A DNA stretch of 64,000 nt, from the NCBI GenBank assembly GCA_030432235.1, contig JAUIHT010000008.1, positions 1-64,000 on the forward strand, given 5' to 3'. The notes under the pieces are model-generated. The model was not told the DNA's origin. It saw nothing but the letters and a program-made list of their open reading frames with translations, and did not search any database. Of the stretch, positions 2,786 to 48,076 are shown one piece after another; position 1 is the first letter of the stretch; each line of letters opens with the position of its first letter. Source of the stretch: Verrucomicrobiia bacterium (GTDB lineage: Bacteria > Verrucomicrobiota > Verrucomicrobiia > Opitutales > Cerasicoccaceae). A program made the translations under genes and the position numbers.

Positions 2786-3337
2786 ATGCAATATATTCAC
2801 ACACCCACACCCCAGGAAGTGCATACTTCTTTGCTTTGCGAAGCAAAGCTAATTCCTCACAGCCCTTTCTGGGACGCTTACGATCACATTCGCGGCCAGG
2901 ATGTGTCTTCGGCTTCCAACATTCTCAGGGAAGACCTCCTCGACGATGAAGGCCACCGATCGGGCAGCAAACGCCTCGGGCTTATATATAGCCTCTGCCA
3001 CGATGACGGAATCAACCTCAGCCATCTGGACTGGCCGCAAGTACTGGCGGCCGCAAATTGCCAAAGCTCACTCGTCCAGCTCTACCGGGCCGGACGCATT
3101 CTGGGAGTGCAGGCCGTCAGCGCGATGCTGGACTTCGGGCATGCCTTCGTGTCCTTGCGCTTATTCGAGATAACCGGACCCGAAGCATCCGCTTTGCTCC
3201 AGCTCTTTGACTTGGAAATGGACGTCATCCTATCCAGCCCGCAAACCGATGAGGCCATGCTCAAGTGGCTCATCGAACGCCAGGAACGAGCCGAACACTA
3301 TCTGGAACCCATCGCCGATCTCTATGCAACAGCCTGA
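2786..3337 (+). CDS. Module protein C, copy L (unknown family, paralogue of F)
   Basis: A 183-residue soluble protein of unknown function. Visible blocks: PFWDAYDHIRGQD near residue 30, SGSKRLGLIYSLCHDDGINL, LDWPQVLAAANCQS, YRAGRILGVQAVSAMLDFGH and LFDLEMDVILSS. The same framework (FW-x-AY, a C-H-D/YHAV region, LDW...AA, R-x-GRI, then H..F..G) appears in module protein F, so C and F look like ancient paralogues, mostly helical. Its last 14 nt overlap the start of gene D, which implies translational coupling. The overlap is the same length in module R. Confidence 0.85.
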   Translation: MQYIHTPTPQEVHTSLLCEAKLIPHSPFWDAYDHIRGQDVSSASNILREDLLDDEGHRSGSKRLGLIYSLCHDDGINLSHLDWPQVLAAANCQSSLVQLYRAGRILGVQAVSAMLDFGHAFVSLRLFEITGPEASALLQLFDLEMDVILSSPQTDEAMLKWLIERQERAEHYLEPIADLYATA

Positions 3338-3722
3338 CCTCTTCCTGCCGTATCCCGGCACGCGCATCCTAGCCTCAGGACCCGAAGCACTCCTTATCAA
3401 AGAATTCGATGGCACTCTCGGTATAATCGACCGCACCCGTTATCAAATCTACCGCTTAAAGCCCCTAAGCTTCAGCATCGGCTTCCAAATGCTCGGCTCA
3501 CCGATCAACGGTATGGGCCTTTTCCGGGGAGGTCTACCGGAGGCTCTCGGCTTCTGGCTAGGAAGAGGCGCAACCTACGTGGGGCTGCTCAATGACGGCA
3601 TCATGCCTGAATGCGAGCTGTTGTGCACGACCCGCATCCTCGCCAGCCCCGGCCAGCTTCAACACCGCCGAACGCCCCATGAGCCTTGGAAGAAACTCAT
3701 CTGGCATATCGAACCAAAATAA
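3324..3722 (+). CDS. Module protein D, copy L (unknown family)
   Basis: A 132-residue protein. The ATG at 3324 is chosen over upstream in-frame starts because it gives the same length and N-terminus as the module R copy (PYPGTRILASGPEALLIKEF) and a conserved 14-nt overlap with C. Blocks: GIIDRTRYQIYRL, LGSPINGMGLFRGGLPEALG, FWLGRGA, TTRILASPGQLQ. The final RILASPG resembles the C-terminal I-x-[ST]-P signature of A, E and G, so D may be a diverged member of that group. It probably works with C. No known domain is recognised. Confidence 0.8.
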   Translation: MQQPDLFLPYPGTRILASGPEALLIKEFDGTLGIIDRTRYQIYRLKPLSFSIGFQMLGSPINGMGLFRGGLPEALGFWLGRGATYVGLLNDGIMPECELLCTTRILASPGQLQHRRTPHEPWKKLIWHIEPK

Positions 3723-3773
3723 TAACCGAACCTCAACGCCTGTTTCGTCAGGCAAAACCATACAACCACTCAC

Positions 3774-3805
3774 GCGTCGGATCCCTCCAGGGGTCCGGCG
3801 CTTTT
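3774..3805 (+). terminator. Intergenic hairpin D-E, module L
   Basis: GCGTCGGATCCC pairs with GGGGTCCGGCGC and is followed by TTTTATTTT. The counterpart at 53648-53680 has GCGCCGGATCC/GGGTCCGGCGC. Gene E starts about 25 nt downstream. Confidence 0.7.
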
Positions 3806-3829
3806 ATTTTATATATAAACCAAAAAACT

Positions 3830-4282
3830 ATGAAAATTAAAATCAACCCACAAACCGACCCTTACCTTCACTTCATCGACGGCTGGCAGATTTTTCGCAC
3901 CATAAGCGAAGACCGCAGCTATTACATAATCAAAGATGGAAAGCTCATTCTGATCCTGGGCTTTCATCAAAATATTAGCTTCGGCATGGCGCTCAAAAGC
4001 AATGCTCTGCGAATCAATCACGACGTCATAGATGGTATTGATCTGCTTAGCGTAATCATGCCGCACGATGACTTGCTCATCCTCACGAATGCGGACGTGC
4101 ATGACGAACTTGCCCGGATTCTGCCTGCACACAGCGGAGGCATGAGCATCCTTTCACCCACCGTAATTTATCAGTCCGGCTACCAATCAATTCCCATTAA
4201 TGACCCACACCCAAGCGGAAAATCTTTCGATGTTTTTACTCTGGATGAGTTCGAAACCTCGGGAGGGAAAATATACCGATGA
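3830..4282 (+). CDS. Module protein E, copy L (unknown family, paralogue of G)
   Basis: A 150-residue protein. The start at 3830 is fixed by alignment with the module R copy, whose first 71 nt are identical. It opens MKIKINPQTDPYLHFIDGW, has alternating hydrophobic strands (KLILILG, IDLLSVIMPHDDLLIL), then DELARILPAHSGGMSILSP and SGKSFDVFTLDEF. The DP..D..L..IDGW opening and the G-x-x-I-x-[ST]-P motif are shared with G. Its stop overlaps the start of F (ATGA), as in module R, so E and F are probably made in fixed ratio. Function unknown. Confidence 0.85.
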   Translation: MKIKINPQTDPYLHFIDGWQIFRTISEDRSYYIIKDGKLILILGFHQNISFGMALKSNALRINHDVIDGIDLLSVIMPHDDLLILTNADVHDELARILPAHSGGMSILSPTVIYQSGYQSIPINDPHPSGKSFDVFTLDEFETSGGKIYR

Positions 4283-4821
4283 GGTTCGTGGACAAAATCG
4301 CCCGACCTAGTTCCTTCTTTCATGCGCTCCGCACCGAATACATCGCAGAGCCAGTCGACTCCTGTTTCTGGGGTGCCTACGAACTTGTTAAACAAGACCG
4401 CACCCTCGCCGCCTGGCGACATTTCAGGGATGGTCTCAGGCAAAGTATCTACGGTCCAGAAGCCGATCAGGTCACCAGCCGCTACTTACTGTATCATGCT
4501 GTCGGCCGCTACCAACGCATCGATACCCAAGGCCTGGACTGGCTGCACCTGATCGTCGCCGCCGGGCTCACACTCGAAGTCCAGCGTTGGATCTGGGCAG
4601 GAAAAATCGGGACCATACACTACTGGCACGCATGTTTTGAACTGGGCAAGCTGCCTAAATTTCTGCCGCTCATGCTTCAGCCTGAGCCAGAAGAAATCAC
4701 GGCCCTCTTGAAAACATACGCCCTCGAGCAAAGGTGCTTTTCGAAGTATCATGGCTCACCGCCTTACGCCGAAGATTTCTGGGTCCAGCGTCAGGCAGTA
4801 GCCACCGCTTTTCTCATTTAA
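4279..4821 (+). CDS. Module protein F, copy L (unknown family, paralogue of C)
   Basis: A 180-residue, mainly helical soluble protein. Blocks: ARPSSFFHALRTE, AEPVDSCFWGAYELVKQD, LAAWRHFRDGL, SRYLLYHAVGRYQRID, GLDWLHLIVAAGLTLEVQRW, WAGKIGTIHYWHACFELGKL. The order FW-x-AY, YHAV, LDW..AA, R-x-GKI, H..FELG matches protein C. It is translationally coupled to E through ATGA. The C-D and E-F pairs each join one helical C/F-type protein with one D/E-type protein, in opposite order. Function unknown. Confidence 0.85.
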   Translation: MRFVDKIARPSSFFHALRTEYIAEPVDSCFWGAYELVKQDRTLAAWRHFRDGLRQSIYGPEADQVTSRYLLYHAVGRYQRIDTQGLDWLHLIVAAGLTLEVQRWIWAGKIGTIHYWHACFELGKLPKFLPLMLQPEPEEITALLKTYALEQRCFSKYHGSPPYAEDFWVQRQAVATAFLI

Positions 4822-4852
4822 ATTATAACCAACAACCATTCATCAACCATGG

Positions 4853-4887
4853 GCCGGTCTCCCATCCGAGGAGGTCGGCTATTTTTT
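4853..4887 (+). terminator. Intergenic hairpin F-G, module L
   Basis: A 10-bp stem, GCCGGTCTCC with GGAGGTCGGC, then ATTTTTT. The module R version is at 54718-54755 and there precedes the radical SAM gene instead of G. Gene G follows after an A/C-rich spacer. Confidence 0.7.
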
Positions 4888-4926
4888 AACTACAAACCAC
4901 AACTACTAATTATAACCAATAAGACC

Positions 4927-5349
4927 ATGAATATGAACTCCAATATCGACCCCAGAAACGACACACACCTTGAAGTAATCGACGGGTGGCGCATTTACGC
5001 CGCCCGGTATACTGCCCAGCTATATCTGCGCGGCAAAAATTTCTTCATCTTCATCAACGGTCAGGAGGCTACCACACGCCTGTTACTCGCCCTGTATCAG
5101 GGAGTCGAAAAAATTGAATTCAGCGAGGCCTGTGAATCCGAATCGCTGACCATTCATTATGGTCAGGGAGAAGTGCTAAGCTTGGTTAACTTTTCTGTGG
5201 ATGAAGATACATATGAAATCTTTCAAGAACACAAGCCCGGCCACTGCATTGTTTCTCCACACATAATAATCCAGTACGGGCACCCCGCTATTGTAGAAGA
5301 TGATCTTCCATCAGGCTGGGTGCTGCAGGTGCTTCAACTGCGAGGGTGA
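4927..5349 (+). CDS. Module protein G, copy L (unknown family, paralogue of E)
   Basis: A 140-residue protein starting MNMNSNIDPRNDTHLEVIDG (start matched to the module R copy). Blocks: the IDGWRIY opening, YLRGKNFFIFINGQEA, VLSLVNFSVDEDTYEIFQEH, GHCIVSPHIIIQYG and DLPSGWVLQVLQLRG. The first block and the I-x-SP block are those of E. The 3' half of the gene and the non-coding DNA behind it are nearly identical to module R, while the 5' half has diverged more. This suggests either gene conversion between modules or selection on the nucleotide sequence. Function unknown. Confidence 0.85.
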   Translation: MNMNSNIDPRNDTHLEVIDGWRIYAARYTAQLYLRGKNFFIFINGQEATTRLLLALYQGVEKIEFSEACESESLTIHYGQGEVLSLVNFSVDEDTYEIFQEHKPGHCIVSPHIIIQYGHPAIVEDDLPSGWVLQVLQLRG

Positions 5350-6907: not shown

Positions 6908-6910
6908 GCA

Positions 6911-8968
6911 ATGAGCTATTCCTCGAAACACGATAAAGCAAAGAGGGCGCCCGCACGGGTCGTCATCTACGCACGTGTTTCGGATAAGAAGCAATTACAG
7001 GATAAATTGGAAGATTCTCTGGAAAGCCAGGAGGCTGGATGCAGGGAGTTTGCCCAGCGTCTATCCTTAGACGGCCAAGAAGCCTCGATCATTGAGGTAA
7101 TAAAAGATGACGGCCGAACAGGCCGTAACGATAAGCGCTCAGGGCTCCAGCGCCTGAAGGAATTAGTCCTCCAGAATAAAGTAGATGTTATTCTGGTAAA
7201 CCGGCTCAGCCGTGTTTTTCGAAATGGCGAACTCGGACTTGGCATCGACAACCTCGTTGAAAAGCATGGCGTACGAATTGTTTCCCGTATGGAACCGGGA
7301 GACAACGATACTGCTTCCGAGAAGTTTGTCCGCGGACTTCACTGGCTTTTGGCTGAAAGAGAGAGCAATGTGATATCAGAAGATGTCAGACGTTCTATCA
7401 GCACGCGAGCGGCCAAAGGCCTGACAAACGGAGGCACGCCAAAGCCTGGTTACAAAACAGAAGGTGGTAGACTTGTCATTGTAAAAGAGGATGCTGCCAC
7501 CGTCGAAGAGATATTTCGTCTGGCCTGCCTGAAGAAAACCCCGATGCAAATCGCAAACGAACTCAATGCTCGGGGACTACGCACACGCGTGCGTATTTCC
7601 AAAAAAGGTAACAAGTCTGGCGGAAATCCGTTTACTCAAGATTATGTGTTTCGGATTCTCAGAGACCCGACCTACAAGGGCGTTATTATATATAACGGTG
7701 AAAGCTACCAGGGAGATTTCGAACCGATCATCTCCGAAGACGTTTGGGATGCCGCACAAGTTGCTCTTGAGAATCGCCCCAGCAAGCGCGAAGGCATTAC
7801 CCAAAGACGCGATCGTTATTTTATGCCGCTCAAAGGCATCCTCCGTTGCGGACATTGCGGTGCAGCGTTGAAACCGACTTACACCAAAAAGGCAGATAAA
7901 CTCTATCATTATTACATCTGCGGTAAACACGAAGACCTCGGAAAGGATTCATCCTGTCCCGTCCAGCGTATCTCTGCCCGGGTGGTAGAACGTTCTGTGC
8001 TTACGGCCGTTGGAGAAATGGCCAACCAATCTGAGGTTATCGAAAAAGTTCTCAACGCTGATGCTTCAGGGCAGGGCAAACGGATTCGCGAACTACGCTC
8101 GCAACGTCGTGCCATTCAAAAGCAACTTAAGGAAATAGATTCGGACGTTCGTGAGTTGAAAGCCAAACTCCTCGCCGTCGCTGGTACCATTGTTGGTGAT
8201 GAGATACGCGATGAGGCTCAAGCCCTGACGGAAAAGAAGAAGCAACTCGTCGCAGATGAGGTGCAGCTGGAGCAGCAAATCAAGTTTTTGGAGTTAGAGC
8301 ATCTCGACGCTGATAAGGTAAGCCGTGGCTTTAAGAAGTTTGCTGAGGCCGTCGCCATGCTTTCCGAGTCTGAGCAAAAAGAGCTGTTTCGGCTGCTTTT
8401 CCAGAAGATCATCGTGAGCGAGGGTGTCACTATCCCTGACCCCGGTATACCCTCCGATAAACGCTGTCGTATGCAGCGGCGTCAGGTGACTGCGATCATC
8501 ACGCTTCGTGGGGCCGCCATTCAGGCTTTAGCTGCCGGGGAGTCTCAAGCCAAAGGGCGGGCTAGGAATCTTGCTGTCGAGTTGATAATCGTCCACAGCC
8601 GCAGCAAACCGACGGAGAGTTTCGGCATCCTTGAGCCCATCTATAAAGAATGCGGCTCGAAACCAACAGGCCCTACCCGCAAACGTACCCCCAAGACCGA
8701 ACACGAAATCCACAAGGCCATTCGCTGGAAAAAGGAAATGGAGTCGTTAGGCATAGGGCAGAATGAGTTCGCCCGCAGGAAGGGACTGTCCCAAGGTGCT
8801 GTCGCCCACGTAATGGCTTGGCTCAAATTGGAGCCAGCTACGATTGGCGTTCTAAAGAAACTCACAGGAACGCAAATTCGCCGCGTGAGTCGTTCAGCCA
8901 GGTCGAAATTGCTTCTACATTATGGTCAGGCGCAACTGCAGTTGCTCAAAGCTCTATTGGGTAAATAG
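6911..8968 (+). CDS. Large serine recombinase (module L)
   Basis: A 685-residue site-specific recombinase. The resolvase domain carries the Y-x-R-x-S motif (YARVS, nucleophile Ser24), followed by VDVILVNRLSRVFRN and the ERESNVISEDVRRSI helix. The recombinase domain follows (PKPGYKTEGG, DYVFRILRDPTYKG), then a zinc ribbon (LRCGHCGAAL ... YICGKH ... SCPVQ) and a long coiled coil (about 380-470). The C-terminal extension has an HTH-like NEFARRKGLSQGAVAHVM. Length and domain order are those of large serine integrases. tRNA-like repeats lie directly downstream (8970-9207), as expected for an integrase next to its attachment site. It is presumably functional, since the frame is intact. Confidence 0.93.
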   Translation: MSYSSKHDKAKRAPARVVIYARVSDKKQLQDKLEDSLESQEAGCREFAQRLSLDGQEASIIEVIKDDGRTGRNDKRSGLQRLKELVLQNKVDVILVNRLSRVFRNGELGLGIDNLVEKHGVRIVSRMEPGDNDTASEKFVRGLHWLLAERESNVISEDVRRSISTRAAKGLTNGGTPKPGYKTEGGRLVIVKEDAATVEEIFRLACLKKTPMQIANELNARGLRTRVRISKKGNKSGGNPFTQDYVFRILRDPTYKGVIIYNGESYQGDFEPIISEDVWDAAQVALENRPSKREGITQRRDRYFMPLKGILRCGHCGAALKPTYTKKADKLYHYYICGKHEDLGKDSSCPVQRISARVVERSVLTAVGEMANQSEVIEKVLNADASGQGKRIRELRSQRRAIQKQLKEIDSDVRELKAKLLAVAGTIVGDEIRDEAQALTEKKKQLVADEVQLEQQIKFLELEHLDADKVSRGFKKFAEAVAMLSESEQKELFRLLFQKIIVSEGVTIPDPGIPSDKRCRMQRRQVTAIITLRGAAIQALAAGESQAKGRARNLAVELIIVHSRSKPTESFGILEPIYKECGSKPTGPTRKRTPKTEHEIHKAIRWKKEMESLGIGQNEFARRKGLSQGAVAHVMAWLKLEPATIGVLKKLTGTQIRRVSRSARSKLLLHYGQAQLQLLKALLGK

Positions 8969-14312: not shown

Positions 14313-15644
14313 ATGAGTCGAATACTACGGATATCCCCTCTAGCGACATGGTCGGGCCTTCTTCTGGCGACACTCCTTTCGAGTGTACCCTTGAAAGCAG
14401 AAGATAAAACCGGGTCGAATATCCCGTTCACAGACCTGCAAAGCTACCTGACGCAGGCCCTGGCGGCCAACCCGCAGTTGGAGGCCTTTGAACGTCGTTA
14501 CGAAGCCGCCATGCAGCGCATTCCCCAGGCGTCGGCCCTGCCGGACCCAATGTTTCAGGTGACGCACTTTGTCGAGTCCGTCCAGACCCGCACGGGGCCG
14601 CAAGAGAACGTCTTTCTGTTCAGTCAAAAGATTCCGTGGTTCGGTAAACTTAGCAGCCATGAGAACGCCGCCTCCGCAGAAGCCGAAGCGCTTTGGTATG
14701 CATACCAGAACCAACAGTTGATGCTGGCCCGCATGGTCTCTCTGGCCTTTTACGAATACGGTTACACGGAAGAGGCCATCCGGCTGACTCAAAAGAACCG
14801 GGACTTACTCCGTGACCTGGAGCCCATCGTCGAGGAGAAAGTACGCGCAGGCGGTGACCTCAATGCCCTGCTACGTCTCAAAGTGGAAGTCGGCATCATC
14901 GACGACCGCTTGCAATCCCTGCACCAAAAACGTGTGGCTCAATCGGCCAAGCTAAACGAGTTGCTGGCACTACCGGAATCAACCTTGCTCCCCTGGCCAC
15001 AATGGCAAGCTCCCGATACCGCCACATTGGATGGTCCCTCATTAGCGGCTTCCATACGCGCCAATAACCCGGAGCTGCAAATGCTGGAACGCAAAATCAC
15101 GAGCGCGGAGGCGCGTCGTGAAATTGCTCGTCTGGAGAACTTTCCCGACATCACTTTAGGCTTTAACTACATCCAGACCGGCGACCCGGTGGTGAACCCG
15201 AACACGCCTGATGCGGGACAGGACCCATGGGGCTTCACCGTGGCGGTTAACATCCCCATCTGGTTTGAAAAATACAATGCCGCCAAAGCCGAAGCGCTGG
15301 CCAACCAGCGTTCGTTCGAGAGCGAATACGATAATCGTCTCAACGAACTCCGGGCGCAGCTTTCTGCCAGTTTGGCGACGCTGAACGATGCCAATCGGCG
15401 TCTAGCACTCTACGGCGATGAATTACTGGGGCTGGCCGAACAGGCCGTGGAGAACACCCGCTCCAGCTATGAGGCAGGCCGTACAGGCATACTGGAAGTC
15501 ATCGACAGTGAGCGCTCCTTACTCGACCTCCAACTGCTTTACTGGCGGGCCGCCTCCGACACATGGCAACAGCGTATTATTATCCAGACCCTGGCAAACC
15601 TCCCCATTTTAGGAACTTTTCACGCAACCCAGAACCATGAATAG
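14313..15644 (+). CDS. cusC: Outer-membrane efflux protein, TolC/CusC family
   Basis: A 443-residue TolC-family outer-membrane factor. A signal peptide (LLATLLSSVPLKA) is followed by an OEP repeat: LTQALAANPQLEAFERRYEA, ASALPDPMFQVTHF, VFLFSQKIPWFGKL. The second half contains NPELQMLERKITSAEARREI, FPDITLGFNYIQTG and VAVNIPIWFEKYNAAKAEAL. It supplies the periplasm-spanning channel for the adaptor and pump downstream, forming a tripartite exporter of monovalent copper or silver. It overlaps the adaptor gene by 8 nt. The cus naming rests on the adaptor and pump type. Confidence 0.88.
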   Translation: MSRILRISPLATWSGLLLATLLSSVPLKAEDKTGSNIPFTDLQSYLTQALAANPQLEAFERRYEAAMQRIPQASALPDPMFQVTHFVESVQTRTGPQENVFLFSQKIPWFGKLSSHENAASAEAEALWYAYQNQQLMLARMVSLAFYEYGYTEEAIRLTQKNRDLLRDLEPIVEEKVRAGGDLNALLRLKVEVGIIDDRLQSLHQKRVAQSAKLNELLALPESTLLPWPQWQAPDTATLDGPSLAASIRANNPELQMLERKITSAEARREIARLENFPDITLGFNYIQTGDPVVNPNTPDAGQDPWGFTVAVNIPIWFEKYNAAKAEALANQRSFESEYDNRLNELRAQLSASLATLNDANRRLALYGDELLGLAEQAVENTRSSYEAGRTGILEVIDSERSLLDLQLLYWRAASDTWQQRIIIQTLANLPILGTFHATQNHE

Positions 15645-17568
15645 CAAACTGATTTTAATCCTTAGCGGCTCTGTCGCAGCAGCCCTGGTGGTGGGCGTTG
15701 GCATTGGCCGCGTAGTTTTCAGCAGCGCTCCCGCACACGAGCATTCCGCCGGGCCGGATGTATCGACGAACACGACTTCGGAGCCAAGCGAAGCCACCCT
15801 GTGGACTTGCTCCATGCACCCGCAGATTCAGCAATCCGAACCAGGACAGTGCCCGATTTGTGGCATGGATTTGATTCCCCTGATTAAAGACGCTGGCAGC
15901 GACGATGGTCCACGCGTGATGAGCATGAGTGAGGCTTCGCGTGCCCTAGCTGATATCGAAACCACCGAGATCGTTCAGGAATACCCGGAGGCGGAAATCC
16001 GTTTAGTCGGGAAACTCGACTATGACGAAACCCGCGAGCAATCGCTTACGGCACGCTTCCCCGCTCGCATCGACGAATTGTATGTCAACTACACCGGCAT
16101 CCGGGTCAAAAAGGGCGAGCACTTGGCGAAGGTCTATAGCCCGGACCTCCTGACCGCACAGCGCGAGCTGCTAACCTCCTACCGCGCCGACCCCAACAGT
16201 GCCATCACGCGTGCCGCCCGCGACAAACTGCGCCTCTGGGACCTACTTCCCGAGCAAATCGAAGCCATCATCGAAAGCGGCGAACCCAAGGACCACTTCG
16301 TTTTGAAGTCTCCCATTGGGGGCATTGTCGTCGCCAAGCATGTCAAGGAAGGCGACTATTTGAAGACGGGCGAGCCGCTTTTCAAAATCGTCGACCTGTC
16401 GGTGCTCTGGGCCAATCTAGATGCCTACGAATCCGACCTCCCCTGGCTACGCTATGGTCAGGATGTGTCCTTCTCGGTGGAAGCACTCCCGGGAGAAACC
16501 TTCCACGGTCAAATCGCCTTCATAGAGCCCGAGGTTAACCGCAAGACCCGTACGGTACCAGTTCGCGTAAATGTCCCCAACCCGGACGGACGTCTCAAGC
16601 CTGGCATGTTCGTGCGGGGCATCGTCAAATCCCGCTTAGCTGAGGATGGCAAGGTGTACGCTCCTGAGTTTGAAGGCAAATGGATAAGCCCCATGCACCC
16701 GGAAATCATCAAGGACGGCCCGGGCCAATGTGATATCTGCGGCATGGATCTAGTGCCTGCCGAAGAGCTGGGCTATGTGGATAACGCCAGCGAAGCCGCA
16801 CCCATCGTCGTGCCCAGCTCCGCCGTACTGCGAACGGGCAAGCGGGCCGTCGTTTACGTGGAAAAGCCTGACAGCGAGCGCCCCACTTACGAGGGGCGCG
16901 AGATCGTGCTCGGCCCTCGGGCAGGTGACAACTACATCGTCGTCTCCGGATTGGATGCTGGCGAGCGCGTGGTCACCCGGGGTGCCTTCAAGATAGACAG
17001 CGCCCTACAGATTCAGGCCAAGCCCAGTATGATGAATCTCGAAGGCGGTGGCCCGATGCCCGGCCATATCCACGGTGGCGCAGAGCAGACTGTAAGCGGC
17101 AAGGACCAAGCCCAGCATCAAGGGATGGCGATGGTGGAGATTTCCACAGAGATGTTGCCTCAGCTTCTCAGTCCTTACTTGAAAATGCAGGCAGCCCTGG
17201 CTGCTGACGACTTGGAAGCCGCCAAAGCTGAGGCCAAGGCCATGATGAGCACGACTGGCCATAGCGGCAGCCTCCCGGACTTGCTCCATAACATGTTGGC
17301 CGCAGACACACTCGAGGCCTTTCGTCTGCCTTATTTCCAGACTTTGTCCAACGCCTTCATCGAAGCGGCAAAGAATGATCCGACGATCCTAAAGCAAGAT
17401 CTATTCGTGATGCATTGCCCGATGGCGAACAACAATGCCAGTGCGGATTGGCTACAGTCTTCGGAGGCCCTGCAAAATCCGTATTTTGGCTCGATGATGC
17501 TCACCTGCGGTGAAGTCCAGCAAGCCATCAGCGCATCGGAAAAGGAGCCCACCAGCCATGAGCACTAA
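15637..17568 (+). CDS. cusB: RND periplasmic adaptor with two metal-binding domains and DUF3347, CusB-like
   Basis: A 643-residue membrane-fusion protein. Order: membrane anchor (5-28); heavy-metal-binding domain at about 56-80 (WTCSMHPQIQ ... CPICGMDL); adaptor core with lipoyl/hairpin part (KLDYDETREQSLTARFPARI, SPIGGIVVAKHVKEGDYLKT); a second metal-binding domain near 350 (ISPMHPEI ... CDICGMDL) inserted in the barrel region; C-terminal DUF3347 from about 500 to the end (LLSPYLKMQAALAADDLEAA, FVMHCPMA, TCGEVQQAI). The family passes Cu+/Ag+ from the periplasm to the pump. Two metal-binding domains plus DUF3347 in one chain is an unusual load of metal sites. It overlaps the pump gene by 11 nt. 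Confidence 0.9.
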   Translation: MNSKLILILSGSVAAALVVGVGIGRVVFSSAPAHEHSAGPDVSTNTTSEPSEATLWTCSMHPQIQQSEPGQCPICGMDLIPLIKDAGSDDGPRVMSMSEASRALADIETTEIVQEYPEAEIRLVGKLDYDETREQSLTARFPARIDELYVNYTGIRVKKGEHLAKVYSPDLLTAQRELLTSYRADPNSAITRAARDKLRLWDLLPEQIEAIIESGEPKDHFVLKSPIGGIVVAKHVKEGDYLKTGEPLFKIVDLSVLWANLDAYESDLPWLRYGQDVSFSVEALPGETFHGQIAFIEPEVNRKTRTVPVRVNVPNPDGRLKPGMFVRGIVKSRLAEDGKVYAPEFEGKWISPMHPEIIKDGPGQCDICGMDLVPAEELGYVDNASEAAPIVVPSSAVLRTGKRAVVYVEKPDSERPTYEGREIVLGPRAGDNYIVVSGLDAGERVVTRGAFKIDSALQIQAKPSMMNLEGGGPMPGHIHGGAEQTVSGKDQAQHQGMAMVEISTEMLPQLLSPYLKMQAALAADDLEAAKAEAKAMMSTTGHSGSLPDLLHNMLAADTLEAFRLPYFQTLSNAFIEAAKNDPTILKQDLFVMHCPMANNNASADWLQSSEALQNPYFGSMMLTCGEVQQAISASEKEPTSHEH

Positions 17569-20500
17569 TACCTTCAATCCAATCAACGCACTGATTCGCT
17601 TCTGCCTGGAAAACAAGCTGGTCGTTATCCTCTTCACCGTGGTGCTGGTTCTCTGGGGGATCGCCGTTGCCCCGTTTGACTGGGAATCGGATGTCCTGCC
17701 ACGCGACCCCGTGCCCGTCGATGCGATCCCGGACATCGGCGAGAACCAGCAAATCGTGTTCACCGAATGGATGGGGCGCTCCCCGCAGGACATTGAGGAC
17801 CAAGTCACATACCCGTTGACCACCGCCTTGCTCGGACTGCCGGAGGTCAAGACGATCCGTAGCTACTCGATGTTCGGGTTCTCCTCGATCTACATCATCT
17901 TCAAGGAGGACGCGGAGTTCTACTGGACGCGCAGTCGCATCCTGGAAAAACTCAACAGTCTGCCTTCCGGCACACTGCCTCAGGGAGTATCGCCGCAGCT
18001 CGGGCCGGATGCCACCGCGCTCGGGCAAGTCTTCTGGTACACGCTCGAAGGCATGAGCCCGAAGGGGAAGCCTACTGGTGGCTGGGATCCGGAGGAACTG
18101 CGCAGTATACAAGACTGGTATGTACGCTATGCCCTGCAGGGCGTGGACGGTGTGGCCGAGGTCGCCTCTATCGGCGGCTACGTCAAGGAATACCAGATCG
18201 ATGTGGATTCCGATGCCCTGCGCACTTACAACATCTCCCTTCAGGATGTGTTCAATGCCGTCCGTGGCAGCAATCTCGACGTCGGCGCACGCACCATTGA
18301 AATCAATGCCGTCGAATACGTCATTCGGGGCCTCGGCTTTATCAAGAACCTGGACGACCTGCGCCAAACGGTCATCACCCAGAGAGACAATGTGCCCATC
18401 ACCCTCCAGCAAGTCGCCGAGATTGAATACGGCCCAGCCTTACGACGGGGAGCCCTCAACAAAGCGGGCGCGGACGCTGTCGGCGGTGTTGTCGTGACCC
18501 GCTATGGAGAAAACCCCTTGGCGGTCATCAAACGTGTCAAAGCCAAAATTCAGGAAATCTCACCAGGTCTTCCGAAAAAAACGCTCGAAGACGGCACCGT
18601 CAGCCAAGTTGATATCGTCCCTTTTTATGATCGCACGGGACTGATTTACGAAACATTGGGCACATTGGAAGATGCCGTACGCCAGCAAATCCTGGTCACC
18701 ATTATCGTGGTGGTGCTTATGGTGCTTCACCTGCGTAGCGCCGCGCTGATATCCGGCGTCCTGCCTTTGGCCGTTCTGTTTGCATTTATCGGCATGAAGG
18801 TCTTCGGCGTGGACGCCAATGTCGTGGCCTTGTCCGGTATCGCCATCGCGATTGGCACCATTGTGGACATGGGCGTTGTCTTGATTGAGAACATCCTCAA
18901 ACACCTCGACGACGCTCCCCCAGATGAGAGCCGTCTGGAGGTCGTCTACCGTGCCTGCGCCGAAGTCGGAAGCGCTGTGGTTACCGCCGTCCTCACGACG
19001 GTTATCAGCTTCTTGCCCGTCTTCACAATGGAGGCTGCCGAAGGCAAACTGTTCCGGCCTCTGGCCTATACCAAGACCTTCGCCTTGATTGGTTCGATTG
19101 TCGTAGCTCTGACCGTTATCCCTCCACTTGCCCACTGGTTCATTGCCGGACGTCATAAATCGACATGGTCCAAATACGGGCTCTGGGGTGGCATCGGTGT
19201 CATCGGACTTCTTGGCTCATTACTGTTCAGTTGGTTTCCCTGGTGGCTGGGCGTGCTAATGCTCGCGACAGCGGCCTTCCATCTGGCCGGAACTCAAATA
19301 CCCGAAAAGGTACGCCGAGGTATTCTATTCGCCTTTAACTTCATCGTAGCCGTACTGGTCGCCCTCTGGCTGGCCGCAGACTGGAAACCGCTTGGACCCG
19401 AACAACACATCCATAATATCTTCTTCGTCCTGATCGTCGTCGGTGGCCTGCTCGGATTCTTTATGGTCTTCATCCGCTTTTATGCGCGGATGCTCGCTTT
19501 CCTTCTGCGCATCAAAACGGTCTTCATCGCACTCAGTTGCTTCATTATTCTGTTTGGCTTCACCGTCTGGCTGGGTTGGGGTAAAGCCTTTGGCTGGCTG
19601 CCCGAACCCATTCGCCAATCAGGGCCCTACGTGGCGATGGCCCACGCCATCCCCGGTCTGGGCAAAGAATTCATGCCTGCTCTCGACGAAGGTTCCTACC
19701 TGCTCATGCCAACCACGATGCCCCACGCCTCCATCGGGGAAGTCATGGATGTACTGAGCAAACAGGACATGGCCATCAACGCTATCCCCGAAGTCGAGAG
19801 TGCCGTGGGTAAACTGGGGCGTGTGGAAAGTCCGCTCGACCCTGCGCCCATCTCAATGATTGAGACCATCATCTCCTACAAGTCGGAGTACATCACCGAT
19901 GATAACGGTCGGATTCTAACTTTCGCCTACGATAGCAAAACCGATGAATACAAGCGCAATGACGCTGGGAAACTCATACCCGATCCTGACGGACGCCCCT
20001 TCCGCCAATGGCGGGATGAAATCAAAAGTCCGGACGATATATGGGACGAGATTGTCAAAGCGGCCACCATTCCCGGCACTACTTCTGCTCCCAAACTTCA
20101 GCCTATCGCTGCCCGCATTGTCATGCTGCAAAGCGGTATGCGGGCTCCCATGGGACTGAAGGTTTACGGTCCCGATTTGCAAACATTGGAAAAGGTAGCA
20201 CTGGAGATTGAAGGCTTCCTCAAACAAGTGCCTTCCATCAAATCAGAGGCTGTCCTGGCTGACCGCATTGTCGGGAAGCCGTATCTGGAAATCGACATCA
20301 ACCGTGAAGCCATCGCCCGCTACGGCATCAAAATCCAAAACGTGCAGGACGTGATCGAGGTTGCTATCGGTGGCAAGCCCATCACCCAAACCGTTGAGGG
20401 CCGCGAACGCTATCCCGTCCGTGTACGCTACATGCGTGAGCTACGCGATTCCATTGAAGCCATCGAAGGCATCCTCGTCGCCGCGCCTGATGGCACACAA

Positions 20501-21340
20501 ATCCCATTACGGGAGCTAGCAACCATCGACTACGTGCGCGGCCCCCAGGTTATTAAAAGCGAAGACACATTCCTCGTCGGCTATGTCATCTTCGACAAGC
20601 GAGACGGCTACGCTGAAGTGGAAGTCGTCGAGCAGGCCCAAAAATTCCTGCAGGACAAAATCGACAGCAACGAACTGGAAATACCCGCCGGAGTCAGCTA
20701 TAGGTTCACCGGGAGTTATGAGAACCAAGTGCGCGCAGAGAAGAAGCTGCGCATCGTGCTACCCATTGCGCTTTTTGCTATTTGGCTGATTCTCTATTTT
20801 CAATTTAAACGTATCGCCACAACGTTGCTGGTCTTTTCCGGCATTCTCTTCGCTTGGTCGGGTGGTTTCATCTTGATATGGCTCTATGGGCAGCCGTGGT
20901 TCCTAGACTTCAGCTTGTTTGGGCACAACCTGCGCGAACTATTTCAGATGGGCACGATCAATCTTAGTGTGGCCGTCTGGGTTGGCTTCCTCGCGCTCTT
21001 CGGTATCGCTACGGACAACGGTGTGATCGTCTGCACATACCTTCAGCAAATCTTTCGGGAGAAGAATCCGCAAACCCTGGAGCAGATACGCGCCGCCACC
21101 GTGGAGGCCGGGGATCGCCGTGTACGTCCGGCTATGATGACCAGCGCCACGACGATTCTTGCACTACTGCCCGTGCTGACATCCGTGGGCCGAGGCTCAG
21201 ACATCATGGTGCCTATGGCCATTCCCTCATTCGGCGGCATGTTGCTCGCCATACTCACCATATTTGTTGTGCCCGTCCTGTATTGCGGACTGGCAGAACT
21301 CACTCATCGATTCAAACCCACAAGGAAAATAGCACTATGA
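17558..21340 (+). CDS. cusA: Heavy-metal RND efflux pump, CusA-like
   Basis: A 1260-residue HME-RND pump. ATG 17558 is chosen because it overlaps the adaptor stop and gives the usual start (FCLENKLVVILFTVVLVLWG). Hallmarks: VDAIPDIGENQQIVFTEWMG, the proton-relay helix VDMGVVLIENILKHLDD, PIAARIVMLQSGMRAPMGLK, RPAMMTSATTILALLPVL. The family exports Cu+/Ag+ (CusA) or divalent metals (CzcA); methionine-rich context and partners favour the former. It is longer than usual (about 1050) owing to extra hydrophobic sequence near 545-660 (GLWGGIGVIGLLGSLLFSWF and onward) and an inserted loop near 780-830. Confidence 0.93.
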   Translation: MSTNTFNPINALIRFCLENKLVVILFTVVLVLWGIAVAPFDWESDVLPRDPVPVDAIPDIGENQQIVFTEWMGRSPQDIEDQVTYPLTTALLGLPEVKTIRSYSMFGFSSIYIIFKEDAEFYWTRSRILEKLNSLPSGTLPQGVSPQLGPDATALGQVFWYTLEGMSPKGKPTGGWDPEELRSIQDWYVRYALQGVDGVAEVASIGGYVKEYQIDVDSDALRTYNISLQDVFNAVRGSNLDVGARTIEINAVEYVIRGLGFIKNLDDLRQTVITQRDNVPITLQQVAEIEYGPALRRGALNKAGADAVGGVVVTRYGENPLAVIKRVKAKIQEISPGLPKKTLEDGTVSQVDIVPFYDRTGLIYETLGTLEDAVRQQILVTIIVVVLMVLHLRSAALISGVLPLAVLFAFIGMKVFGVDANVVALSGIAIAIGTIVDMGVVLIENILKHLDDAPPDESRLEVVYRACAEVGSAVVTAVLTTVISFLPVFTMEAAEGKLFRPLAYTKTFALIGSIVVALTVIPPLAHWFIAGRHKSTWSKYGLWGGIGVIGLLGSLLFSWFPWWLGVLMLATAAFHLAGTQIPEKVRRGILFAFNFIVAVLVALWLAADWKPLGPEQHIHNIFFVLIVVGGLLGFFMVFIRFYARMLAFLLRIKTVFIALSCFIILFGFTVWLGWGKAFGWLPEPIRQSGPYVAMAHAIPGLGKEFMPALDEGSYLLMPTTMPHASIGEVMDVLSKQDMAINAIPEVESAVGKLGRVESPLDPAPISMIETIISYKSEYITDDNGRILTFAYDSKTDEYKRNDAGKLIPDPDGRPFRQWRDEIKSPDDIWDEIVKAATIPGTTSAPKLQPIAARIVMLQSGMRAPMGLKVYGPDLQTLEKVALEIEGFLKQVPSIKSEAVLADRIVGKPYLEIDINREAIARYGIKIQNVQDVIEVAIGGKPITQTVEGRERYPVRVRYMRELRDSIEAIEGILVAAPDGTQIPLRELATIDYVRGPQVIKSEDTFLVGYVIFDKRDGYAEVEVVEQAQKFLQDKIDSNELEIPAGVSYRFTGSYENQVRAEKKLRIVLPIALFAIWLILYFQFKRIATTLLVFSGILFAWSGGFILIWLYGQPWFLDFSLFGHNLRELFQMGTINLSVAVWVGFLALFGIATDNGVIVCTYLQQIFREKNPQTLEQIRAATVEAGDRRVRPAMMTSATTILALLPVLTSVGRGSDIMVPMAIPSFGGMLLAILTIFVVPVLYCGLAELTHRFKPTRKIAL

Positions 21341-21906
21341 AACAAATCATCAAACTGGCCCTTGGCCTTATTCTTGGCGTCTCTGCGACGTATGCCCACG
21401 ACGATGCCTTCCAGCCTAAATTCGTCGACACCTTGGTCGGCCCTTATCTCGCTATCCAAAAAGGCTTGGCCGGCGACGATTTGAAGACAGCTCAAACGGG
21501 TGCCAACAGCTTCCTCGACGCCATGAAGAACGCGCCTCAGGAAGGTGAAGCCAAGGAAGAGTCTGCCGATTTGTCGAATCCCGCTGATGCCATTGCCAAG
21601 GCTTCCGACCTCAAGACCGCCCGAACGGCCTTCCTGGATTTATCGCACGAGATGATTCCCTTGGTTCAACATGTTGGCATAACCACGAACACGAAATTGT
21701 TCGTCATGCATTGCCCGATGGCCCTTGAACATCAAGGCGGCGACTGGATTCAGATGGATAAGAACGTGGTCAACCCCTACATGGGTGCCAAGATGCTGCA
21801 CTGCGGCAGTATCCAAAAGCAAATCGCCGGAGTATCCGTATCGCCAGAGGGTCACTCGGATCACGACGAAGACCACGAGCACAACGCGGACCACCACGAC
21901 ATTTAA
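21337..21906 (+). CDS. Secreted DUF3347 protein with His-rich tail
   Basis: A 189-residue exported protein; ATG 21337 overlaps the pump stop (ATGA) and begins a signal peptide (MKQIIKLALGLILGVSATYA). The mature part is DUF3347: PKFVDTLVGPYLAIQKGLAG, LSHEMIPLVQHVG, KLFVMHCPMALEHQGGDWIQ, KMLHCGSIQKQI. It ends in a His/Asp-rich tail (HSDHDEDHEHNADHHDI). DUF3347 also forms the C-terminus of the CusB-like adaptor in this operon, so this is probably a free periplasmic metal buffer or donor. The operon ends behind it with a terminator. Confidence 0.85.
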   Translation: MKQIIKLALGLILGVSATYAHDDAFQPKFVDTLVGPYLAIQKGLAGDDLKTAQTGANSFLDAMKNAPQEGEAKEESADLSNPADAIAKASDLKTARTAFLDLSHEMIPLVQHVGITTNTKLFVMHCPMALEHQGGDWIQMDKNVVNPYMGAKMLHCGSIQKQIAGVSVSPEGHSDHDEDHEHNADHHDI

Positions 21907-21910
21907 ACCA

Positions 21911-21949
21911 TTTGCCGCCCGCGCCGATAAGGCCGGGCGGCTTCTTTTT
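21911..21949 (+). terminator. Rho-independent terminator after the Cus operon
   Basis: GCCGCCCG-loop-CGGGCGGC followed by TTCTTTTTT. It sits between the DUF3347 gene and the YHS-protein gene, whose ATG follows within a few bases. Confidence 0.8.
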
Positions 21950-21954
21950 TAGCC

Positions 21955-22755
21955 ATGTTTAAAAGTTTAAGAACGACCCCAGGGTTCATCGTCCTATGCC
22001 TAATCGCCTTAACCACAAGTGCCGTCGCCGCTGAAGCGGTTAATCAATATTGTCCTGTAACCCCAGATGAACCTGCTGAATCCTACATAACAACCGAGTA
22101 TAAAGGACAAACCATTGGGTTTTGCTGCAAACGTTGTTTACGTAAATTCATTGCCGATCCTGAAGCCTATATCGCCAATCTCCCCCACGATAATACAGAT
22201 ACGCAGGCGATATACGATGCATCTGGCAAAGAGCAGAATCCGGGAAACAATGAAGGTGTTGCGCCAGGTCAAAGCCCATCACATGAGCACAACCATTCAA
22301 CTGATCATGCGGAATCCGATGAGTCACCTGTACTCATTTTCCTCGGCAAGCTTCATGTTCTTAGTGTTCACCTGCCGATAGCACTCTTACCCATAGCAGC
22401 TATTTTGGAAATGCTCGGATGGGTATTCCGTTCCCAGTCCTTACTATTCGCCGCCCGTACGAATTACGTCCTCGGCGCGATGGCCGCGATGATTACGGCG
22501 TCCCTAGGGTGGATTGCGGCAAGTCTGAGCCATTACCCCCAAGATCTGGCAACGGTGCTCCTATGGCATCGCTGGCTAGGTATCACCGTAGCATCCATCA
22601 GCCTGCTTGGACTTCTCGGTATACTCGGAATGCAAAAGTCGAAATCATGGGGCACGGTTCTTTACCGGACTGTCATTTTCGTCCTGCTGGTCTTGGTGCC
22701 AATAACCGCGCATTTCGGCGGCACTCTCATATACGGATTAGATTATCTATTCTGA
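21955..22755 (+). CDS. YHS-domain and DUF2231 membrane protein
   Basis: A 266-residue protein. A signal peptide (IVLCLIALTTSAVAAEA) precedes a YHS/TRASH metal-binding domain with cysteines in NQYCPVTPDEPAE and GFCCKRCLRKFIADPEAYI. A His-rich linker (SHEHNHSTDHAESDE) leads to four membrane helices of DUF2231 type (KLHVLSVHLPIALLPIAAIL, MAAMITASLGWIAASLSHYP). Such proteins are common beside copper efflux genes; the YHS part probably binds Cu(I), while the role of the membrane part is unknown. It starts right after a terminator, so it depends on read-through or an internal promoter. Confidence 0.8.
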   Translation: MFKSLRTTPGFIVLCLIALTTSAVAAEAVNQYCPVTPDEPAESYITTEYKGQTIGFCCKRCLRKFIADPEAYIANLPHDNTDTQAIYDASGKEQNPGNNEGVAPGQSPSHEHNHSTDHAESDESPVLIFLGKLHVLSVHLPIALLPIAAILEMLGWVFRSQSLLFAARTNYVLGAMAAMITASLGWIAASLSHYPQDLATVLLWHRWLGITVASISLLGLLGILGMQKSKSWGTVLYRTVIFVLLVLVPITAHFGGTLIYGLDYLF

Positions 22756-22775
22756 TTTTCTCGAAACAAATCTGA

Positions 22776-22801
22776 GGGTTTCCCTTATCGCATACGTTTA
22801 A
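22776..22801 (+). promoter_or_regulatory. Candidate ECF-sigma promoter of the gene at 22853
   Basis: GGGTTT-N13-CGTTTAA with the same spacing as the sites at 10166 and 14277. Here a normal leader follows, with AAAGGAAACGAA as ribosome binding site before the ATG at 22853. Confidence 0.6.
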
Positions 22802-22852
22802 TAGTATGAATGCGAATGAGCGCATTTAAAACCTGAGTTAAAAGGAAACGAA

Positions 22853-23257
22853 ATGAAAAAGATAGCTTCAACATTCATCGCTGTAATGACGCTCGCAAGC
22901 GTATCCCTACTGGCTGGTCCGCCTGCCGGAGGATGGTACAAGGAAAAGACCTTATCCACGGCTGCTGATTTCGCGGCCCTCGAACTGGGGGATCAAGTCG
23001 CCCAGGTTTGCAAGAAATGTGACAGCATTTCCGTGGTCGAAATCCAGTCCAAGGATCAGGCGATGGACTTCTGCAAAGAAGGCGCTACCATCGACTGCCC
23101 ATCCTGCGGAAATGTAGCGAAAGTCGTTCGCACGGGCCCTCCATCCCAGTCACCTCAGAAAATCGAATTCGTCGATGAGCATGGGAACGCCTGCATGTTT
23201 ATGGCAAAACTGGAGCCGAAGTCGCCGGCTGATTTCCAGCACGGCCACAAACAGTAG
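22853..23257 (+). CDS. Secreted Cys-rich metal-binding protein, sigma-regulated
   Basis: A 134-residue exported protein with signal peptide (MKKIASTFIAVMTLASVSLL AG). It has two CxxC pairs, VCKKCDSISVVE and CPSCGNVAKVVR, plus single cysteines in DFCKEGAT and GNACMFMAK. The pattern is that of a zinc-ribbon or soft-metal site. It has its own promoter of the type attributed to the ECF sigma factor, so it is probably a periplasmic buffer made under metal stress. No named family recognised. Confidence 0.8.
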   Translation: MKKIASTFIAVMTLASVSLLAGPPAGGWYKEKTLSTAADFAALELGDQVAQVCKKCDSISVVEIQSKDQAMDFCKEGATIDCPSCGNVAKVVRTGPPSQSPQKIEFVDEHGNACMFMAKLEPKSPADFQHGHKQ

Positions 23258-23279
23258 CCCGAATCCGTCAAATTCAACG

Positions 23280-23312
23280 AAGCGATGGCTCAAAAGGCCA
23301 TCGCTTTTTAAT
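23280..23312 (+). terminator. Rho-independent terminator after 22853-23257
   Basis: AGCGATGGC-tcaaaag-GCCATCGCT followed by TTTTAA. Confidence 0.85.
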
Positions 23313-23437
23313 TTATACAAAAAGAAATAACCGAATCTTGGGAACTAAATTCCTGTATTAATTTCACAAAAATAAAGCTTGTTTCCCCTAAATGATCTTG
23401 ACAGGTCTTTGTTAATATTCTGCTTCTTAGGTTCGAC

Positions 23438-23839
23438 GTGCATCACAAAAAGAAAATAGTTGCCTTACTAGTAGGTCTTATTGCTTGGAACGGTGTTCTA
23501 GGTGGCGTAAGTGGCATACTAATGTGTCTGCATGCTGCGGGGTCATTTCATATCGCAAGTTTTGAGACCACGGAGAATTGCTGCCACGTCCAAGAGGATG
23601 ACGTCATCCACGAGTGTCAAAAATGCAATGACTTGGAACTGGATGGCATCGATCTGTTAGCATTTAGAGACAGCGATTCCGCACTGACGTATCCTTTTGC
23701 TGAGATATCAGAGGTTTTCGTATTGCCTGAACCCACGTGGAATAAGTTAACGATTCTTGGGCCTAATCCCACACGTGCCCCTCCCTATCGCGTCGACACC
23801 TGCCTTATGGTGGCAGAAACAGTCGTACTGCGCATTTGA
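23438..23839 (+). CDS. Small exported Cys-rich protein ahead of the Czc operon
   Basis: A 133-residue protein starting at GTG with a hydrophobic leader (IVALLVGLIAWNGVLGGVSG). Cysteines cluster in ENCCHVQED and HECQKCNDLEL, a plausible metal site. It stands before the CzcCBA-type operon, separated from it by a terminator-like hairpin (23857-23885). The family is not recognised; small CzcN- or CzcI-like proteins occupy this place in other clusters, but similarity cannot be shown by eye. Confidence 0.6.
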   Translation: MHHKKKIVALLVGLIAWNGVLGGVSGILMCLHAAGSFHIASFETTENCCHVQEDDVIHECQKCNDLELDGIDLLAFRDSDSALTYPFAEISEVFVLPEPTWNKLTILGPNPTRAPPYRVDTCLMVAETVVLRI

Positions 23840-23856
23840 AATCCTGATCAATGTTG

Positions 23857-23886
23857 ATGGGCGTCACCCTTCCCGGGGACGCTTTT
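23857..23886 (+). terminator. Rho-independent terminator before the Czc operon
   Basis: GGCGTCACC-cttc-CCGGGGACGC followed by TTTTT. It separates the small exported protein from the outer-membrane factor gene. Confidence 0.7.
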
Positions 23887-23935
23887 TGCATGCCCTCATG
23901 GGGTGTGCATACACCAACTCGAATCAGGATTTTTT

Positions 23936-25204
23936 ATGCACTTTTTCAAACAATTACACACATATACAATCATTATAGTTGTCCCTATGGGGGCTTTGTT
24001 CGGGCAAGAACCCGCCGGTTTTGAGCCGGAAACGATTAGCTACGCGACTGCCCTAGAGCGGGCAATCGACGGTAACCCTAGATTATATCTGAACGCTTCA
24101 GAAGCGGAAGCAGCAGAGGGCCAAATTGAACAAGCTGACCTGCCTCCCAATCCAGTGGTCGGTTTCGAGGCTGAAAACTTCTTGGGGACCGGTCCCATAA
24201 CCGGCGTCCAGGGGCTGGAACTCACTTTGGGTATAAGCCAAGTCATTGAAACCGCCGACAAACGCCAACACCGCACTAACTTGGCCAGAAAAGAACGCGC
24301 TCTGGTCGACTGGCAACGCGAGGTTTTGCTGACCGAACTGGAGGCAGCTGTCAGAGCGGCTTTTGTCGATGTTTTGCTCGCCCAGGATTCGGTCGACTTA
24401 CGAAAAGAACAACTGGCGTTAGCCCAGGAAAGTGAAGGTGAAACTTCTCGTTTGGTTGAGGCTGCCCGTTCCCCTCAAGTGGAACTGACGCGCGCCACGC
24501 TCGCCGTACGCCAACAGCAGTTTTCTTTGGATAAAGCTCAACGAGATTTGGCTACGACCAAGACGGTCCTTGCTTCCCTATGGGGCCTAGGAGCGGAGCA
24601 ATCATTCGCGGTTGAAGGGTATGTTACTCTGGAACCAGAGCTTCCCGATTTCACGGCATTGGCCTCAAGGCTGCCTAGCACCGCTCAACTTGCTCAATAC
24701 GAGGCGCTTCTTAAGAGCCGCGAGGCAGCTCTGGACCTGGAAAAGGCCCGGGCAGTGCCCGATGTGGAGGTGTTCGCCGGAGGCCGCTATTACAACGAAG
24801 ACAGCGGCAACTTTGGGTTCGTGGCGGGTTTCAATATTCCATGGCCTCTCTTTGACAGGAATCAAGGGAACATCCGAACCGCGAGGGCTCAAGTGCGAGC
24901 GGCGGAGTATGAGCGTGAGTCCGTAAGACGTGAGATGCTGATTCGGCTCAATAGTGCCTATCAGGCATTAGCCAGTGCTCATGCCGAAGCCTTAGCGGTA
25001 CAAAGAGACCTACTGCCCAGTGCCGAACAAACGCTGGCCGATACGAATACTGGGTATGAGCGAGGTCAATATACCCAGCTCGCTGTTCTAGAGAGCAGGG
25101 AAGCTCTTTTTGAGGTGCGAGAAGCCTATCTCGACGCGTTGCAGCGCTATGCCACTGCTCAAGCAGCCATAGAGGCCCTTACGCGTCCGGCAGGCCTCCA
25201 ATAG
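23936..25204 (+). CDS. czcC: Outer-membrane efflux protein, CzcC family
   Basis: A TolC-family protein (422 residues from ATG 23936; an in-frame start 11 codons upstream is possible). A hydrophobic leader (TIIIVVPMGALFG) is followed by SYATALERAIDGNPRLYLNA, DLPPNPVVGFEAENFLG, ELTLGISQVIETADKRQHRT and the second repeat VEVFAGGRYYNEDSGNFGFV AGFNIPWPLFDRNQGNI. The phrase SQVIETADKR is typical of CzcC. It forms the exit duct for the divalent-metal exporter encoded next. Confidence 0.88.
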   Translation: MHFFKQLHTYTIIIVVPMGALFGQEPAGFEPETISYATALERAIDGNPRLYLNASEAEAAEGQIEQADLPPNPVVGFEAENFLGTGPITGVQGLELTLGISQVIETADKRQHRTNLARKERALVDWQREVLLTELEAAVRAAFVDVLLAQDSVDLRKEQLALAQESEGETSRLVEAARSPQVELTRATLAVRQQQFSLDKAQRDLATTKTVLASLWGLGAEQSFAVEGYVTLEPELPDFTALASRLPSTAQLAQYEALLKSREAALDLEKARAVPDVEVFAGGRYYNEDSGNFGFVAGFNIPWPLFDRNQGNIRTARAQVRAAEYERESVRREMLIRLNSAYQALASAHAEALAVQRDLLPSAEQTLADTNTGYERGQYTQLAVLESREALFEVREAYLDALQRYATAQAAIEALTRPAGLQ

Positions 25205-25252
25205 CAATCAAGCAACGCAGTAACCAATACATAAACATTTATTTACCATTCA

Positions 25253-26347
25253 ATGAAAACGACACCGTATACATTCAAACTTTTTATTATAGGCATTTTT
25301 GCACTGGGCTTGTCTGCAATCGCCCAAGGACAAGCACACAATGATCATGACCACGAGGAAGAGGCAGATCATGGAGAAACACATAAGCAACACGATACGC
25401 ATGATTCCCATGCCAAACCGAAGAGTGATGTGGATGAACACGATCACGGCGAGGAGCAGGAGCATGGCGAGTCCCATGATGCCCATGAAGATCATGATGA
25501 GCACGGAGAGCACGGTGACCACGAAGAAGGTCCCATTAAGCTTAACCCAGAGGTCATGCGTGAGTTTGGAATTGTCATAGGAAAGGCAGGCCCGGGAACC
25601 TTGCATGAGACGGTCGTGTTGCCCGGTGAGATTCAATACAATCGGGAAGCAATTGCCTACGTAACGCCTCGCTACGAGGGCACGGTCTTGTCCATCAATG
25701 CGCGACTTGCTGACAAGGTAAAAAAGGGCCAAGTATTGGCCAGTCTCGAGAGCACGGAGACACTTCGTCCCTTCGAGTTAAAAGCGCCTTTTGATGGCGT
25801 GGTCGTCGCATACGATGTCACTCCCGGCCAAACCGTTCAAGCTGGCATTCCCTTATTCACAGTTGCAGACCTATCCACCGTCTGGGCGGATCTAAAAGTC
25901 TACCAACGCAACATTGGCGAGATCCATGAGGGGCAGACTGCCCGTATCGAAGGTGGCCACTCACAGACCAGTTACACCGGAAAGATAGCCTACGTTGCTC
26001 CTACTGTCGATGAACATACCCGTACGGGTCTAGCCCGAATTGTGATTGAAAATCCTCAGGGCATCTGGAAGCCGGGCCAGTTTGTTAAGGGTACAGTGTC
26101 GACCGACGAACAGAAGGCTGCCTTGTTGGTTCCTCGTTCAGCCGTTTTGAAAAATGAAGGCGATACGGTAGTTTTCATCCAGGATGAAGACGGATTCGAG
26201 CCTCGTCCTGTGGTTTTGGGAAGCAGTGATGCAGAATCCTGGGAGGTCGTTTCCGGACTCAAGCCCGGAGAGGTAATTGTCGTGGAGAATCCGATCTCCC
26301 TCAAAGCCGAAATGGGCAAAGGCTCCTTCGGTGGACACCATCATTAA
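25253..26347 (+). CDS. czcB: RND periplasmic adaptor, CzcB family, His-rich
   Basis: A 364-residue adaptor. A signal peptide (LFIIGIFALGLSAIAQG) is followed by about 75 residues dominated by His, Asp and Glu (for example HNDHDHEEEADHGETHKQHD), a likely zinc/cobalt/nickel-binding region. The core is standard: VLPGEIQYNREAIAYVTPRY, LKAPFDGVVVAYDVTPGQTV, TVADLSTVWADLKVYQRNIG, APTVDEHTRTGLARIVIENP. It ends GGHHH. It links the CzcA-type pump to CzcC. Compared with the CusB-like adaptor upstream it uses histidine rather than Cys/Met sites, which suggests divalent cations. Confidence 0.9.
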   Translation: MKTTPYTFKLFIIGIFALGLSAIAQGQAHNDHDHEEEADHGETHKQHDTHDSHAKPKSDVDEHDHGEEQEHGESHDAHEDHDEHGEHGDHEEGPIKLNPEVMREFGIVIGKAGPGTLHETVVLPGEIQYNREAIAYVTPRYEGTVLSINARLADKVKKGQVLASLESTETLRPFELKAPFDGVVVAYDVTPGQTVQAGIPLFTVADLSTVWADLKVYQRNIGEIHEGQTARIEGGHSQTSYTGKIAYVAPTVDEHTRTGLARIVIENPQGIWKPGQFVKGTVSTDEQKAALLVPRSAVLKNEGDTVVFIQDEDGFEPRPVVLGSSDAESWEVVSGLKPGEVIVVENPISLKAEMGKGSFGGHHH

Positions 26348-26365
26348 TTCCAAAGAACTGACATC

Positions 26366-48074: not shown

Positions 48075-48076
48075 GT

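Follow-up and report, generated by a model that had tools for sequence, protein, structure and literature searches.

Protein complexes in which several subunits are paralogues of one another are described as a general phenomenon (PMC2628386). The module analyzed here resembles such complexes in that its paralogues are proposed to have taken on differing roles in one complex, and differs from them in that this complex is only proposed, from genes. When its seven genes, A to G, were compared with Pfam, NCBIfam, PHROGs and PADLOC, none produced a match above chance, the only hit to a PADLOC-DB 2.0.0 model being to BrxB for C, at chance level (E 0.035). Sequence searches of the PDB returned no match for the E/G family and B, and a sequence-profile match of the C/F family to the GINS subunit Psf3 (E 0.024–0.035) was judged to be due to chance.

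Gene content of the two copies

The window (the whole stretch of 64,000 nucleotides that was analyzed) contains two copies of the module, both on the forward strand. Copy 1 comprises gene A (1456–2106, 216 aa), a possible distant relative of E/G; gene B (2218–2715, 165 aa), the most conserved gene of the module, which stands outside the paralogy; gene C (2786–3337, 183 aa) of the C/F family; gene D (3324–3722, 132 aa); gene E (3830–4282, 150 aa) of the E/G family; gene F (4279–4821, 180 aa) of the C/F family; and gene G (4927–5349, 140 aa) of the E/G family. All seven open reading frames are real genes, at the positions named in the preceding sequence-only reading, the range of which (3324–5349) covers only D to G. 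The starts chosen for E (ATG at 3830) and G (4927) are both backed by copy 2; a longer frame for E, beginning at 3686, was rejected because copy 2 matches the ATG at 3830 instead.

Copy 2 (51313–56330; DNA 78–87% identical to copy 1) consists of A (51313–51963, protein 80% identical), B (52081–52578, 88%), C (52650–53201, 85%), D (53188–53589, 77%), E (53700–54149, 67%), F (54146–54688, 81%) and G (55908–56330, 81%), and a third A-type gene of the window (46489–47175, forward strand) is 38% identical to A. The overlaps of C with D (14 nt) and of E with F (4 nt, ATGA) are identical in the two copies. The dN/dS ratio between the copies is 0.13–0.27 in all seven genes, which shows that all of them are under purifying selection. 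The C-terminus of the B product is [RQ]P-x-F-[AV]-A at each of the five loci compared (RPxFAA in copy 1, codons 2695–2712; also copy 2 and the loci L026, L027 and L035 described below), a tail which we take to resemble C-terminal degradation signals.

Between F and G, copy 2 carries a gene for a radical SAM protein with a CxxxCxxC motif (54776–55750, forward strand) that loci 2, 3 and 4 share and module 1 lacks. Because the F–G spacer of copy 1 fuses the left part of the copy 2 spacer between F and the radical SAM gene with the right part of the spacer between the radical SAM gene and G, the change was more likely a loss of this gene by copy 1. Distant relatives of the radical SAM gene, 25–28% identical, are found on haloarchaeal plasmids.

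Two families of paralogues

C and F are homologous, as are E and G. Profile–profile comparison with hhalign gave a probability of 97% for both pairs (E 6e-11 for C and F, 1e-11 for E and G), and whole-length alignments scored far above residue shuffles (z 8–11 and 16–23, respectively), none of 300 shuffles being as good in either case. Furthermore, the profile scores of 71.5 for C–F and 70.5 for E–G lie about 20 standard deviations or more above their column-shuffle nulls (13.1 ± 2.9 and 12.3 ± 2.2), again with no shuffle as good (0/100 each). Unrelatedness of C and F, or of E and G, the outcome that would speak against the kinship proposed from the letters, was thus not what we found at the sequence level. 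Not all of the landmarks cited for that kinship held equally well. FW-x-[AS]-Y and LDW....AA are present in both C and F; R-x-G-[RK]-I is exact in both copies of C and in F of copy 2, but F of copy 1 reads WAGKI; and of the H/FELG landmark, ELG occurs in F only, C having DFGH at that place. The C/F alignment is too divergent for use as a pattern. E and G have in common the DGW and a late I-[LV]-[ST]-P.

The two C proteins are 85% identical to each other, whereas C and F of copy 1 are 24% identical; together with the trees, this indicates that the duplications are older than the split between copies 1 and 2. The trees, the deep forks of which are unresolved, place the two F proteins apart from every C-type member and the single E/G member of L026 at a distance from both E and G. 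Further C/F members (C, C' and C'') are encoded in L027.

By propensity prediction, C and F are mostly helical. For E, a structure predicted with an alignment of E from copy 2 and both G proteins (pLDDT 81, pTM 0.79) has an alpha/beta fold with elements in the order EEEE-H-EEE-h-EEE. This model gave no clear match in the PDB (best Foldseek E 0.3; best VIA-align Z 4.6, a value that common arrangements also reach) and none in BFVD. Among the folds considered, the DNA clamps UL44, PCNA and beta clamp reached Z 2.0–2.5 only and the amino-acid racemases/epimerases Z up to 4.6, and both likenesses were judged meaningless.

Are A and D relatives of E and G?

The sequence-only reading had also grouped A, and perhaps D, with E and G, so that the module would have grown by duplication of two folds. 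The C/F and E/G families are well supported, but A and D are not proven members. In A versus E/G, one of 100 column shuffles was as good, the aligned stretch being 27 columns at DGW and the hhalign probability 1.4%; for D versus E/G and A versus D, 19 and 10 of 100 shuffles were as good, all of these shuffle counts being uncorrected for the 14 pairs compared. A does carry DGW (residue 26), but in place of I-x-[AST]-P it has a late I-H-A-T-P, and the distance from DGW to the late motif is about 168 residues in A versus 90 in E. In D, ILASP is present and DGW absent. An early DGW is rare by chance (0.1–0.8% per shuffled protein), whereas the late motif is not (3–14%). In a low-confidence model of A (pLDDT 37), residues 105–203 follow the order EEEE-H-EEE-E, as in E, and the strands in the propensity profile of D are roughly colinear with those of E. 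A common fold of A and D with E/G is therefore only suggested, by an order of predicted elements that is alike without significant sequence similarity.

According to the sequence-only reading, every overlapping pair would combine the two types. This agrees with E–F and, if D is of the putative second type, with C–D, neighbors in four loci, but the close pairs D–D' in L026 and D–A'' in L027 would both consist of the putative second type.

Hairpins between the genes

Terminator-like hairpins on the forward strand lie between A and B (2140–2164; the stem persists in copy 2, with a change on both sides), between B and C (2744–2774, approximate ends, found by folding in copy 1 and by scan at 52607–52637 in copy 2), between D and E (3774–3801) and between F and G (4852–4880); further hairpins of copy 2 are at 53648–53674 and 54715–54751. 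In every locus, among them L026, L027 and L035 with its different gene sets, most module genes are set apart by T-run hairpins, which are followed by A/C-rich, G-poor leaders ahead of the ATG. Because a terminator scan of copy 1 found 5 hairpins against 4.7 expected from shuffles, and hence was not above shuffles, the argument for stepped expression, which the hairpins at A–B, B–C, D–E and F–G suggest, rests on their position and on the stems kept in copy 2.

Genomic neighborhood

Both copies are preceded by a regulator gene on the same strand, of the Xre/HTH_3 type for module 1 (602–880, TTG start) and an HTH gene for module 2 (50510–50851), and followed by a gene for a large serine recombinase (6911–8968 and 57148–59214, both forward), the second of which adjoins tRNA-Asn (59409–59483). 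The start of the first recombinase gene (6910–6981) is kept at 88% in 56995–57066, just before the second, and this stretch is perhaps the remnant of a recombinase exchange.

Copy 2 faces a group of genes in the opposite orientation, which includes the conserved gene w (47244–48113, reverse strand; no Pfam match) and the PD-(D/E)XK nuclease-like gene n (48077–48658, reverse strand); between the two groups lies a gene for an exported repeat protein with a tail that by eye is PEP-CTERM-like (49016–50461, reverse strand). The module recurs with these same neighbors: copy 2, L026 and L027 share the layout of a w–n group opposite the module, an exported-protein gene in between and an HTH gene ahead of the module, and in copy 2 and L026 the w–n group itself also holds an HTH gene. 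Copy 1 starts at one end of contig C34. Another contig, C38, carries at its end w, n, an HTH gene and a C-terminal portion of a PEP-CTERM protein; the start of the window encodes an N-terminal portion of an FGE-sulfatase-like protein. Because the two pieces fit in orientation, the contigs probably adjoin, which would give copy 1 the same layout. The kind of exported gene varies by locus (FGE-sulfatase-like, repeat protein with PEP-CTERM, S8 peptidase).

A recombinase or integrase lies near copies 1 and 2, L027 (adjoined by a tyrosine integrase) and L035, its type differing between loci; no such gene was seen over the 19 kb that represent L026. The region between the two modules contains metal efflux genes, named by reading (14313–29473, forward strand), with two large RND-type pumps and their outer-membrane and membrane-fusion partners, and a defense-type cluster on the reverse strand (34472–38234 and 32793–34226) of OLD-like ATPase/TOPRIM and UvrD helicase genes and an HD phosphohydrolase of the dGTPase type, the OLD/UvrD pair being Gabija-like by Pfam domains only. 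Type I restriction genes are present in L026.

Related loci and distribution

A third locus of the same genome, L026, encodes HTH, A, B, C, D, D', a single E/G protein and the radical SAM protein, and lacks F. A genome of the same family and another genus (G128) has two loci, L027 and L028, 99.6% identical over 7.7 kb, with HTH, B, C, D, A'', A', C', C'' and radical SAM genes and no E/G. C has D as its immediate downstream neighbor in copies 1 and 2, L026 and L027. In a search of 388 genomes from the phylum and 373 from the order, C/F is confined to the genome of the window and G128, as is w, and E/G was found only in the former; A, D, w, n and the radical SAM gene occur in both C/F-carrying genomes and in none of the 8 others of the family. 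In the genomes searched, the module occurs within a single bacterial family. Relatives of A and B were absent from a collection of 84,980 genomes, and no relatives were recovered from viral contigs (searched with B, A and E/G), phages (B, C and G) or plasmids (A and B).

In a third genome (G388, locus L035), B lies beside a gene that is nuclease-like by eye (no Pfam match), and w, which accompanies the module in every other locus, is missing. Next to this B, at 4699–8421 of L035, are duplicated gene sets X and Y (X1 and X2 98.7% identical, Y2 and Y3 96.9%, Y1 and Y2 96.3%). Profile comparison matched these sets with confidence neither to C/F nor to E/G; X versus C/F and Y versus D beat 100 shuffles, but with scores below 20. 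Such modules seem prone to grow by duplication, G388 being a parallel case.

What the module may be

The reading that we prefer, to which we would assign a probability of about one half, is that of an island-borne cytoplasmic module that has grown as at least two of its families duplicated within the operon, the duplicates being subunits of one hetero-oligomer. Duplication within the operon of the probably helical C/F and of the small alpha/beta fold of E/G would have been followed by divergence into different subunits of this complex. Because their reading frames overlap, C and D, and E and F, would be made in step, translational coupling providing the partners in equal amounts. More tentatively, the complex may act with the PD-(D/E)XK-like nuclease and the radical SAM enzyme to serve the island in conflict or maintenance, a function that the HTH regulators could switch; the link of the nuclease to the module is drawn from neighborhood, and the B locus of G388 lacks w. 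The terminator-like hairpins between most genes argue against one evenly expressed operon, and the loose gene content, with G128 devoid of E/G and L026 of F, also speaks against the preferred reading.

In a rival reading, the duplicates would be diversified stand-alone proteins, for instance an inhibitor- or immunity-like array of cassettes in which each protein has a partner different from the others' and its own terminator. The T-run hairpins in all loci, the differing numbers and combinations of C/F, D, A and E/G genes from locus to locus, and the clean absence of the radical SAM cassette from copy 1 are all in line with such an array, but the retained adjacency of C and D, the retained C–D and E–F overlaps and selection that, between copies 1 and 2, is purifying rather than diversifying in all genes speak against it, and we regard it as unlikely. 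Slightly less probable still is that the module serves the housekeeping of the island (excision, copy number, regulation) and is not its cargo. This would explain why the module stays in islands while the exported genes change from locus to locus, and it accords with the recombinase or integrase genes near four of the loci; however, none is seen near L026, and the variety of recombinase types indicates that the module is not tied to one. Convergence of composition without homology is hardly credible as the source of the C/F and E/G likenesses because, although a lone motif of the I-x-[AST]-P kind is often shared by chance, the alignments are full-length, no residue or column shuffle equaled them, and independent members from L026 and L027 fall into the same families.

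A bolder version of the hetero-oligomer reading, which we consider rather improbable, would make the locus a hitherto undescribed island conflict system: a hetero-oligomer built of two new folds, both duplicated, would work together with a radical SAM enzyme and a PD-(D/E)XK nuclease and would be coupled to an interchangeable exported protein. Should the preferred reading hold, the locus would be a compact example of a mobile module gaining subunits through in-operon duplication, with protein families absent from every library tested and a small fold without detected relative, and the related loci would make the order of events testable.

Comparison with known systems

The radical SAM partner weakly matches the PA0069 and rSAM_mob_pairB families (NF033668 and TIGR04470; E 2e-8 and 8e-8), but because its scores of 32–34 bits are far under the respective cut-offs of 360 and 410, it is a relative and not a member of these families. 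As for the anti-phage defense systems of PADLOC-DB 2.0.0, although none of the genes A to G fits any of the models, the module resembles these systems in its location in an island, in its nuclease-like neighbor and in the defense-type genes nearby.
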